A stretch of 64,000 nucleotides of DNA from Candidatus Panguiarchaeum symbiosum. GTDB lineage: Archaea > Asgardarchaeota > Njordarchaeia > Njordarchaeales > Panguiarchaeaceae. A program made the translations under genes and the position numbers. The DNA lies in assembly GCA_024720975.1 (NCBI GenBank), contig JANJXX010000001.1, positions 250,811 through 314,810 of the forward strand, written 5' to 3'. Of this stretch, positions 43,988 to 47,949 are shown piece after piece (position 1 is the stretch's first letter; the number at the start of each line of letters is the position of its first letter). The notes under the pieces were generated by a model, which was not told where the DNA came from, did no database searches, and saw only the letters and a list, made by a program, of their open reading frames with translations.

Positions 43988-44737
43988 TTAATCCTCAATA
44001 AATAAATCAAGCTTCTGCCCTTTCTTTCCTAGAACCCTATCTATAGTTTCTTGTGAAAGAAGCACTTGAAGAAAGGCCCTTGAGTCACGCAGAAGCTCTC
44101 TGAAGTTTTTGGTTCCTATCTGTTTCGCAAGAAAACTCATAGCCCTAAGTACATAATTTACGACACTGATGCAAAGCTCCAGTCCATAATCTGTGAGCTT
44201 AAATGCTTTTCGGACCATATGATGGGTTGGTGGAATAACTAAGATGTTTGATTTTGATGTCATGTACGCGTCAGATATAATTATAACAGGCTTCGTTGCT
44301 GGTAAGTGATATTCAAGATCTAGTACTTTCAATATTTTATGGTTTAAGCATATTATCGCAGTATCGAAGTCCTGCTCGATCATGTCGTATATCTTGTTTT
44401 TCACCTGAAACCTCTCAAACAAAATTTCTAGCTCCGGTACGCTTAAATTATCGAAGCACTCCTTGATGCTTATCACATAGTCTTCCTCACTTATAACTCC
44501 ATATGGTGTCACTAGGTACAATAGAACCTTCTCGCCAGTGCTCTCTAGTCGCATTACCGCTCTTTGCAGCCTAGTGAACACTGAGTTGTACAAGGCACTA
44601 GCTACTGAGGGAATATAGCGACCCTCATCCCTAAGCCTTGCTAGGAAGCTGTATATATCCACTTCATCGATATCCCAGACGCTTATCTTGCCTTTAATTC
44701 CCTCTATACATGGCGATTCAAGGATGACTATATGCAC
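43988..44737 (-). CDS. Unknown protein, third gene of putative E2-like operon
   Basis: 249-aa ORF starting 12 nt after the 44749 gene; LLYLVTPYGVISEED weakly recalls DUF6884/YaaA-type folds. Confidence 0.55.
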   Translation of the reverse strand: MHIVILESPCIEGIKGKISVWDIDEVDIYSFLARLRDEGRYIPSVASALYNSVFTRLQRAVMRLESTGEKVLLYLVTPYGVISEEDYVISIKECFDNLSVPELEILFERFQVKNKIYDMIEQDFDTAIICLNHKILKVLDLEYHLPATKPVIIISDAYMTSKSNILVIPPTHHMVRKAFKLTDYGLELCISVVNYVLRAMSFLAKQIGTKNFRELLRDSRAFLQVLLSQETIDRVLGKKGQKLDLFIED

Positions 44738-44748
44738 CAGAATTCCCT

Positions 44749-45324
44749 CTATAGGTTTATGAAGCTTATGCCCCTTCCAAGCTGTTGAACCACTTTACTT
44801 TTTTTAGTTGATACTATAGAAAACCATATGAGAAAGATACTTAAGTAATGCGCTATGCCTGCATAAGGAGAATTTTTTATCCAAATTTGCCTCAAAATGG
44901 GGGGTATACACATAAATGGCGCCCCACCTGTTTCTCTATCGATGATTCTCCTGAACATGAGGTCTTCCTTAGATGTTGGATCATCCGCAAGTCTAGGTAA
45001 AGCTCGTGGATATGTTCTCGGGCATAAAATTGATATTGTAATCTTTTTAAACTGGTCTGAGTGCTCTTCGCCAAGTAGTTTGGTACAGTCAACATCAACA
45101 AGAAATTTTCCGCCCTTGACATACCTAAGATTTTCAAAAGGTATGTTTTGATTAAACTTTTTCCATGCGGCAAAGGCACTTATCTCTTCTTTAACACGGT
45201 TGGGGTCCTCTGCAGGGTGTTTATCCACATATATCAATGGTATTTCATCTAGAAAATTCCAGTATCCAACTATGTTTATTCTCAATTCTATTCTCAACAC
45301 GTGAGAGTTACTCATGATTCCCAC
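44749..45324 (-). CDS. UBC/E2-fold-like protein
   Basis: KKITISILCPRTYPRALPRLA (UBC hxhxhxxPxxYPxxxPxh hallmark) then PFMCIPPILRQIW..SPYAGIAHYLSIFLIWF, compare E2 G.ICLDIL..W.P..TI..VL. Confidence 0.55.
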   Translation of the reverse strand: MGIMSNSHVLRIELRINIVGYWNFLDEIPLIYVDKHPAEDPNRVKEEISAFAAWKKFNQNIPFENLRYVKGGKFLVDVDCTKLLGEEHSDQFKKITISILCPRTYPRALPRLADDPTSKEDLMFRRIIDRETGGAPFMCIPPILRQIWIKNSPYAGIAHYLSIFLIWFSIVSTKKSKVVQQLGRGISFINL

Positions 45325-45695
45325 TATTTACCTTTTAGTATCGCTTGAGGGGTAATGAGTGTGTACTTCGCTTGCCTGCCACATAGATCGCATTTAGGCA
45401 TCTTCGGTTTTCTTCTTGGCCATAGGAGCCACTTATGTTTCGGCGAGATTGACGTTAAGCTTTCAAGACAAAACTCACATATTGTTATTCCTAACTTAGC
45501 CGGTATCATAATGAAGCTCGCATCATGTAACTTGCACACATCACATTTAGTTATGTCTTTAAATATAGGTCGAGGTACTATAAAAGCTGACGCTGCAAAG
45601 CCGAGTAGCGTTAATAGTTCGATACACTTCTTGCAAACTCTGAGGGGCATATCAAGCTCTTTCCTGTCCTCTACTACTATACTCAAATCGAGCAC
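45324..45695 (-). CDS. Small zinc-binding protein with four CxxC motifs
   Basis: VCKKCIE, KCDVCKL, ICEFCLE, KCDLCGR; last base shared with start of the 44749 gene. Confidence 0.6.
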   Translation of the reverse strand: MLDLSIVVEDRKELDMPLRVCKKCIELLTLLGFAASAFIVPRPIFKDITKCDVCKLHDASFIMIPAKLGITICEFCLESLTSISPKHKWLLWPRRKPKMPKCDLCGRQAKYTLITPQAILKGK

Positions 45696-45894: not shown

Positions 45895-47949
45895 ATGCTA
45901 ATAAAGCTCTGGGAGCGAAGATTCGACTCTGAGATCAGGGGTATTCATGTAGCTGATATAAATTCTGATGGACTTGATGAAGTGATCTTAGCCAGCCACG
46001 ATTCTAGGATATATGCAATCTCACATAATAAGGTTTTGTGGTCAACTGAAGAACAAGAGTTTCCCGGTGAGAATGTTACGGTTATTAAAACATCCATGGG
46101 AAAGCCCTACCGCATCGTTGGTTCTTTTCATAAGGAGTTGATATACTTCGATTTAGAGGGAAAAAAACTCCATAAGACATCATTATCCTCCTGGATTGTG
46201 CGTCTGATCAATATCGGTCCTAGTAAGTATGGCATTGATGCACTACTAGCAGTAGACCTCAGGGGAACAATTTATTGCGTTGATCCAGAGGGGAATATTT
46301 CATGGAGACTTGAAAAGGCGTTTCAAGAGAACAGTCTTAACCGTATGCTATATGGAATAGCTGTTGATAATGAGTTACAAAGAATTTTTCTAGCTGATAG
46401 GCATGAAATTAAGGTAATAGACTTCGATGGAACTCTAAGACAAACTAAGAGTATAACCCGCGAGGATATTCATGGAATAGCGATAGTTAATATCGTTCAA
46501 GAGAGCCACCACAAAGTAAAGATGCTCGCTGTTGGAACAAGAGGGGGAGTTATCCTCCTTGATCTTGTCACTCTAAAGGAATTGGCGAGGACTGATCTTG
46601 GTTCTAAAAGAGAAACCCGTGTACTGCTATCATGTGACATCAACAGCGACATGAACGATGAAGTATTCATAGGCTCTTGGTCCGAGGATCAAGTGATTGT
46701 CCTGGAATACAATGAGAAAGAGAAAAAGCTGAAGGAAATAGCAAAATACAACATTGAAGGAAATCCACTCTGCATCCTAGCTGGCGATTTTCGCGGCTGT
46801 TTTCAGAAGGAGATTGTTATCGGAACTGATGGGGATCGCGCCTATGCAGTAATCTGGCCTAAAGACGTTATTGAGCTCGAGGCTAGCGTCTCATTGCACA
46901 GCATTTGTTTTGGAAATACCTTAGGATATGGTCCACAGGACATTTTACTTAGGTCTAACAAGGAAACAATGACTTGCTATTCTTTTGTTCCGCGCGTGTG
47001 GTCAAAACTCAATAACTTTAATACTCTTGAGGGCATGCTGTATGCAATAATACCATCAACTGCAAAGATTAAGACCGATAAAGTTGTTATACTTGATACG
47101 AAAAATCGAAAGGTAGCCAGCGCATCTCTTGATAAGAAAAAGATATCACTTTGTGAGATACCATTTAAGGCAGCGTATAAAGGAGGTATATCCGAACTTA
47201 CTGTTGAAGTTGACAACAAAGCGCTTCTGAGAAGTTTTATTTTAGTCCCAGACACTGGTAAATTGACGGTGCTTACTAGGAGCCTTGCCTTGGCCGAAGA
47301 GGACATTATCACTATAGATGATATAAAAGTCGATAAAAAAGAACTAGAGGTCAAATCCAGAGGACTCGAAATAGTCAAAACCCTTGTCAAGGACAACAAA
47401 CTTAAGCTAGGGGTGGTAAGGAACACTAGTGATATAGCCCGCGTGGAAATTTCAGTGTACTCTTACAACGAGCAAAACAAAGAGAGACAAATGATGCTAA
47501 AATACAATTTCATGGTAGTTCCATTGGAAACATTACGTGCTGAGTTACAAATTGATGAGATGATCACTACCGAAGACGCTATAACTCTCCATTTGCGGAA
47601 TAACTCTGGAAAAGAGATACCATACAATATCATCAGCGATGGTCCCCTCAATATTAAAGCTTCTGGCGAGCTTTTGCCCCATTCAGAGAAACCCGTGAAA
47701 CTTACAATTTCAGTAAAATCTGATGAACTGCAGATTGAAGTAAACCAGGTTCTAGATCTAACGTATGGAGATTACTTAAGGAGGACAATCAAAATCCCGA
47801 TTAGATCTCGCGTACTGAATGTAAGCGCTATCAATGAGCGCGCTAGACGGATATATGCGGCTACCAAAGACCTAAGAGTCGTTTTCGAGACTCTGAGTAA
47901 AGATTTGAATTTGTCCGAAGAAGTTCTTAAGAAGGTCGTAAGATTGTAG
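45895..47949 (+). CDS. Beta-propeller protein with C-terminal Ig/appendage-like region
   Basis: IRGIHVADINSDGLDEVILASHDSRIYAIS; VLLSCDINSDMNDEVFIGSW; repeated FG-GAP/VCBS-like blades; C-terminal beta-rich plus helical segment. Confidence 0.65.
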   Translation: MLIKLWERRFDSEIRGIHVADINSDGLDEVILASHDSRIYAISHNKVLWSTEEQEFPGENVTVIKTSMGKPYRIVGSFHKELIYFDLEGKKLHKTSLSSWIVRLINIGPSKYGIDALLAVDLRGTIYCVDPEGNISWRLEKAFQENSLNRMLYGIAVDNELQRIFLADRHEIKVIDFDGTLRQTKSITREDIHGIAIVNIVQESHHKVKMLAVGTRGGVILLDLVTLKELARTDLGSKRETRVLLSCDINSDMNDEVFIGSWSEDQVIVLEYNEKEKKLKEIAKYNIEGNPLCILAGDFRGCFQKEIVIGTDGDRAYAVIWPKDVIELEASVSLHSICFGNTLGYGPQDILLRSNKETMTCYSFVPRVWSKLNNFNTLEGMLYAIIPSTAKIKTDKVVILDTKNRKVASASLDKKKISLCEIPFKAAYKGGISELTVEVDNKALLRSFILVPDTGKLTVLTRSLALAEEDIITIDDIKVDKKELEVKSRGLEIVKTLVKDNKLKLGVVRNTSDIARVEISVYSYNEQNKERQMMLKYNFMVVPLETLRAELQIDEMITTEDAITLHLRNNSGKEIPYNIISDGPLNIKASGELLPHSEKPVKLTISVKSDELQIEVNQVLDLTYGDYLRRTIKIPIRSRVLNVSAINERARRIYAATKDLRVVFETLSKDLNLSEEVLKKVVRL

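Follow-up and report, generated by a model that had tools for sequence, protein, structure and literature searches.

The gene studied here occupies positions 44749-45324 on the minus strand of the window, the whole 64,000-nucleotide stretch of DNA that was analyzed, which comes from a Njordarchaeota (Asgard) MAG (genome G000; 81% complete, contamination 1.9%). It starts with GTG and encodes a 191-aa protein that Pfam, family-profile, AlphaFold and Foldseek comparisons assign as a UFC1-like E2 conjugating enzyme; the translation contains ITISILCPRTYPRALPRLA and PFMCIPPILRQIWIKNSPYAGIAHYLSIFLIWF, as quoted in an earlier note on this DNA. Directly upstream on the same strand (45324-45695), a gene for a 123-aa protein with four CxxC pairs, corresponding to two predicted zinc sites, is translationally coupled to the E2 gene: in the sequence TAGTG at 45324, one base is common to the stop codon of the zinc protein gene and the start codon of the E2 gene. 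The third operon gene (43988-44737, minus strand) begins 11 bases 3' of the E2 gene and encodes a 249-aa protein with no Pfam or NCBIfam match. This protein is genus-specific, with an orthologue at 49% identity in G001, a sister genome of the same genus, and was seen only in that genus. The reading frame, the motifs and the coupled operon of a four-CxxC zinc protein and a further protein are as the earlier note described them.

Divergent to the operon, at 45895-47949 on the plus strand of the window, lies the gene for a 684-aa FG-GAP/beta-propeller protein with weak matches to BBS2, BBS7 and ITFG2, whose neighboring position is conserved in G001 (L041:9580-10845).

The E2 gene is a real gene, because orthologues are present as full-length open frames in six further genomes of the same order and because the pair of zinc protein and E2 genes is kept at 7/7 loci, with the zinc gene directly upstream each time.

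The 191-aa protein is a divergent homologue of UFC1

UFC1 is the E2 of UFMylation and hands the ubiquitin-like tag UFM1 to targets; it has a TAK motif in place of HPN. In a single-sequence Pfam search, UFC1 (PF08694) was the sole family listed for the window protein at E <= 10, with an E value of 0.0025 and a score of 17.9 bits that lies below the Pfam cut-off of 25 bits; UQ_con (PF00179) gave no match at E <= 10. A profile of the seven orthologous sequences, which are 32-56% identical to the window E2, matched 26 UFC1 chains in the PDB with E values of 2e-8 to 1.5e-5, the next match standing at 0.47, and ubiquitin E2s were absent from its PDB matches up to E 10. The alignment to UFC1 spans nearly the whole domain. 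The pairwise score against human UFC1 is 10 SD above that of shuffled sequences, with 0/500 shuffles reaching it, and all seven orthologues outscore all 500 shuffles. The similarity is remote, at ∼20% identity over the aligned structure.

The residues expected at an active site are conserved together with this overall similarity. Cys139 (codon at 44908-44910, minus strand), the predicted catalytic Cys, is aligned with UFC1 Cys116 in both the profile-PDB and the pairwise alignments and is invariant in 7/7 orthologues, as are His159 and the residues of the YPxxxP motif of the UBC fold, Y105, P106 and P110 (44995-45012, minus strand). The resemblance to an E2 active-site region that the earlier note saw around the Cys in FMCIPP is supported by this conservation; its comparison of the surrounding stretch with the pattern xxCLxILxxxWxP of ubiquitin E2s is not, as the stretch instead follows the UFC1 pattern (GGKICL...LWARNVPKFGLAHL in UFC1 and GGAPFMCI...IWIKNSPYAGIAHYL in the window protein). 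The two proteins share W...N-x-P...G-(I/L)-A-H, human UFC1 having GLAH where the window E2 has G156-I157-A158-H159 (44848-44859, minus strand; G156, I157 and H159 invariant in 7/7). They differ in that the stretch before the Cys is longer in the window E2 and in that neither TAK nor HPN occurs at the corresponding place in the seven orthologues aligned with human UFC1, HPN not being found anywhere in the E2 protein in the seven-orthologue alignment. Because TAK is missing, we classify the protein as a divergent UFC1 homologue, not as a canonical UFC1.

The predicted structure has the topology of UFC1

An AlphaFold model of the E2 was obtained with a pLDDT of 74.9 and a pTM of 0.74, the core being mostly above 80. 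The first 25 Foldseek matches of the model are all UFC1 (E ∼2e-5, probability 1.00), and other folds appear only from E ∼0.1, with RWD domains from 0.12 and ubiquitin E2s from ∼0.4. The TM-scores to UFC1 (0.47-0.54 by query length) are moderate, which the disordered ends would lead one to expect. Among E2s, UFC1 stands out by a true helix that follows the active-site Cys, by a long alpha-2 that runs without a break and by the lack of alpha-3 and alpha-4 (PMC8481289). The predicted model has this UFC1-specific topology: a helix at 142-154 follows right after the Cys, a long last helix spans 157-171 and no helix lies beyond it. The N-terminal helix alpha-0 of UFC1 is not seen, residues 1-22 being modelled at low confidence and without a helix.

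The UBC fold read from the sequence by the earlier note is supported by this model. A UFC1 fold could also be kept by a non-catalytic adaptor of the UEV/RWD-like kind that binds, for example, the ubiquitin-like protein (Ubl) or the zinc protein, and the absence of TAK and the extra sequence before the Cys relative to human UFC1 are compatible with such a role. An adaptor of this kind would not need the Cys, yet the Cys is invariant across orthologues that have diverged to 32-56% identity, and UFC1 far outranks RWD folds in the Foldseek search; we regard the adaptor explanation as improbable. The protein is a UFC1 homologue and not a generic E2, UEV or RWD module, and of the phrase "divergent E2/UEV or RWD" in the earlier note, the E2 part stands, as a UFC1-type E2, and the UEV/RWD part is dropped.

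All eight Cys of the 123-aa zinc protein are invariant in 7/7 genomes. The protein has no PDB match and no family match, and its predicted model has no fold match; RING, ClpX-type and other zinc families were considered and rejected, all having Pfam E values of 0.02 or worse. Its coupling to the E2 in every genome makes the zinc protein the leading candidate for a target-selecting partner of the E2, and it is a candidate E3.

Candidate partner genes in the same genome

The window holds no E1, Ubl or JAMM gene, as the earlier note stated, but such genes are present on other contigs: a search of the genome found all three, and E1, E2, Ubl and JAMM are spread over three contigs of G000. The membership in a conjugation system that the earlier note suggested gains support from this gene set. 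The E1 is a 255-aa ThiF-family protein on contig C27 (L077:7428-8195). The profile of its group scores 203 bits against UBA5, with the active-site Cys aligned, vs 117 bits for ThiF/MoeB, the next best, and the catalytic Cys, in the motif C-x-x-S-L-P-T, is present in 16/16 group members. The Ubl is a 113-aa protein on contig C19 (L111:7380-7721) that matches the Njordarchaeota Ubl profile at E 7e-28 and ends ...AEMLGITGST, with a proposed cut between AEMLG and ITGST. Next after it on C19 lies a gene whose product has the JAMM motif intact (HSH...S..D). Contigs of one MAG need not stem from a single organism, but in the sister genome G001 these parts again occur together.

The C19 Ubl by itself has no Pfam match. 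The C-terminal Gly is common to 12 Ubls of related clusters, and the first 13 PDB matches of the joint profile of these Ubls are UFM1, with a best E value of 0.003 and an alignment that extends up to the terminal Gly of UFM1 itself; the UFM1 resemblance of the Ubl family of G000 rests on this 12-sequence profile. Profile A3 alone did not match UFM1 in the PDB, and the small Ubl profile A1, which matched designed pentatricopeptide proteins, was discarded as a case of repeat inflation. A search with the Pfam UFM1 model (PF03671) gave sub-threshold matches only and also gave matches in 6/14 control genomes, and for both reasons these matches served as leads. Ubls were accepted on gene neighborhood, conserved Gly and family profile.

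The ThiF/MoeB fold is common to UBA5-like E1s, and separate MoeB-like genes are present in these genomes, so the E1 and Ubl could conceivably transfer sulfur in the manner of Urm1, ThiS or MoaD, with an unrelated role for the E2-like protein. The E1 profile, however, scores 86 bits higher for UBA5 than for ThiF/MoeB, and its Cys motif matches that of UBA5. Sulfur transfer would also leave unexplained the UFC1-like E2 between E1 and Ubl in relatives, as well as the Ubl-E2 fusions described below, and we consider it very improbable.

The E1-E2 matches given by PADLOC are to the ThiF domain only, and nothing pointed to a phage-defence operon. No match to the C78 (UFSP) protease was found in 29 genomes, a result to be read with the equal silence of the controls, which left the search without a positive control. 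For UFL1, G000 gave only a sub-threshold match (E 0.0037); there is no clear match in Njordarchaeota, and there is a clear one in another Asgard family.

Gene neighborhoods in relatives and the pairing of the E2

In the related genomes G002 and G008, a single operon contains JAMM, E1, a second E2, likewise UFC1-like, and a UFM1-like Ubl in which ...RDLLG or KDLLG is followed by a short tail. UFC1 is the first PDB match of this second E2 family (3e-6), independently of the window E2. The Ubl family of G000 occurs in the order Ubl-JAMM-Sec61-beta, as separate neighboring genes, in a sister genus (G005, G006, G007, also G002), and in G008 the Ubl and Sec61-beta form one open frame (L040:1225-1803; ...SADMLGAPPMSEEF...; Sec61-beta E 1.8e-12), analogous to the fusions of ubiquitin with ribosomal proteins. 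Because these genomes are all of one genus, the Sec61-beta linkage counts as one event, not five. The earlier note had left the choice between conjugation and trafficking; conjugation is supported, and this linkage in relatives is the only direct indication of trafficking.

The Ubl-JAMM-Sec61-beta cluster has no E2 gene that we could see. The window-type E2 was detected in seven genomes, each of them also having the E1 of this cluster type, and the two co-occur in 7/8 genomes having either, a count drawn from few, related and incomplete MAGs. In G005 (76% complete), the E1 and Ubl are present and the E2 was not found. The system-1 Ubl was not found in G000 and G001. Given this absence and the co-occurrence of E2 and E1, the window E2 is likely to pair with the UBA5-like E1 and the Sec61-beta-linked Ubl family, a pairing read from gene distribution; no operon joins the E2 to its proposed partners, because the three genes sit on separate contigs.

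Several E1/Ubl systems exist in these genomes, among them one that combines a JAMM protein and a 455-aa HPSV...RNVCLG protein with a long 479-aa E1, and the window E2 might instead serve one of these other Ubl clusters or an ordinary archaeal ubiquitin system of the Caldiarchaeum type rather than a UFM1-type Ubl. This appears unlikely, given that each of the other Ubl clusters seems to encode an E2 of its own and the proposed partner cluster has none, that HPN is absent, and that ubiquitin E2s are missing from the PDB matches of the profile and late among those of the model.

The long-E1 cluster of G000 (contig C11, L078:7484-11514) comprises a 143-aa protein ending GRVG, the 455-aa protein, JAMM and the 479-aa E1, and has likely counterparts in L086 and L089. 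The HPSV...RNVCLG motif of the 455-aa protein is E2-like by eye, and on that ground the cluster was set aside as a partner of the window E2. Other arrangements were also seen. A third kind of Ubl (...VSEDLFG) lies directly upstream of another UBA5-like E1 in G003 (L084:3816-4951), and a helical/winged-helix protein, EAP30-like in L130, is encoded with a further conserved protein downstream of E1-JAMM-Ubl-E2 clusters (L038:10593-12287, L039:10837-12317 and L130:8574-10912).

UFC1-like proteins in other Asgard archaea

A third profile, composed of UFC1-like E2s and one fused Ubl-E2 row, matches 22/226 Asgard genomes from several families, a few of these matches spanning only the Ubl part. For this third E2 family, UFC1 is the only PDB match at E <= 0.01 (best 3.5e-5). 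Genome G026 encodes a 272-aa fusion of a UFM1-like Ubl and a UFC1-like E2 (L130:7584-8402) that scores 27.2 bits for UFC1 vs the cut-off of 25, and such Ubl-E2 fusions sit in clusters with a UBA5-like E1 and JAMM. The same genome encodes a 788-aa protein (L131:5902-8268) that matches UFL1 (5e-13) and DDRGK (3e-9), and also PCI and VPS28 models; it is possibly an ancestral joint UFL1/DDRGK1. In G036 (L032:8816-12126), two different UFC1-like E2s flank a JAMM protein and a UBA5-like E1. A tree of 21 rows places human UBA5 with the E1s of these archaeal families (support 95/91), a grouping that says little on the direction of inheritance because bacterial UBA5-like proteins were left out.

Discussion

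At the level of sequence, the E1, E2 and Ubl are homologous to UBA5, UFC1 and UFM1, their catalytic residues are conserved and all parts occur in one genome. Our main reading, to which we give a probability of roughly 0.8, is that the window protein is the UFC1-like E2 of an archaeal UFM1-type conjugation pathway. In the proposed mechanism, the JAMM protease would trim the precursor of the Ubl back to the C-terminal Gly, in G000 by cutting after AEMLG. The UBA5-like E1 would adenylate this Gly and then bind the Ubl in thioester linkage at the Cys of the C-x-x-S-L-P-T motif, from which transthiolation would pass it to Cys139 of the E2. The E2 would attach the Ubl to a target lysine, possibly at the ribosome-Sec61 translocon and aided by the co-transcribed CxxC zinc protein, and the JAMM enzyme would also take the Ubl off its targets. 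Support for the scheme comes from the catalytic residues and from the set of genes. We infer each reaction step from UFMylation; the pairing of the E2 with E1 and Ubl, the substrate and the role of the zinc protein are likewise proposals. The link to the translocon is suggested by the Sec61-beta operon and fusion in relatives together with the action of eukaryotic UFMylation at SEC61-bound 60S ribosomes (PMC10937380).

The E2 shares with UFC1 the helix after the Cys, the long last helix without alpha-3 or alpha-4, the Cys and the flanking motifs, and differs in the absence of TAK, the unseen alpha-0, the longer stretch before the Cys and the sub-cut-off score of the single sequence. Like UBA5, the E1 has one adenylation domain with the catalytic Cys inside and paired zinc cysteines, but at 255 aa the G000 protein has no room for the C-terminal tail in which the UFM1- and UFC1-binding sequences of UBA5 lie. 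The Ubls resemble UFM1 in being small and of the beta-grasp type, with a single rather than a double Gly, a tail after the Gly in several members and, in one archaeal branch, a C-terminal (R/K)-D-x-x-G (IVPRDLLG vs IIPRDRVG). They are very divergent from it (best profile E 0.003), some end at the Gly and some are fused to Sec61-beta or to an E2. The compact E1/E2/Ubl sets with a JAMM protease as maturase recall the E1-E2-Ub-Rpn11 operons of Caldiarchaeum (PMC6043591), where the modifier is of the ubiquitin type, whereas the types here are those of UBA5, UFC1 and UFM1. Compared with eukaryotic UFMylation, the archaeal system has a JAMM protease and gave no C78 match in the search that lacked a positive control; TAK is absent, UFL1 has no clear match in Njordarchaeota, and the E2 is always encoded beside a CxxC zinc protein.

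A 2023 survey found UFM1, C53, UFC1 and UFSP2 only in eukaryotes and traced UFL1 and DDRGK1 to Asgard archaea, inferring that the pathway is of mosaic origin, with UFL1 and DDRGK1 older than UFM1 (PMC10183829). Within the literature searched, whose scope excluded preprints and most subscription papers, we found no earlier report of an archaeal UFM1 or UFC1; one paper names an "Asgard archaeal UFM1", with no further particulars, as an outgroup. A pathway described in 2023 as partly eukaryote-exclusive thus seems to have an archaeal counterpart. A co-occurring UFM1-type set of E1, E2, Ubl and protease in Asgard archaea would put the inheritance of a working cascade in place of the mosaic origin. 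More tentatively, and at somewhat less than even odds, UFMylation and its Sec61 link may be pre-eukaryotic, an Asgard UBA5-UFC1-UFM1-type cascade at the ribosome-translocon having been inherited by eukaryotes with JAMM later replaced by UFSP. If this is true, the original use would have left its traces in the Ubl-JAMM-Sec61-beta operon and the Ubl-Sec61-beta fusion. The linkage of the Ubl to Sec61-beta is relevant to the question of why ribosomes bound to the translocon are the site of eukaryotic UFM1 action (PMC10937380). The archaeal cascade would also offer a minimal version for studies of mechanism and would make a question about the origin of eukaryotes testable in vitro.
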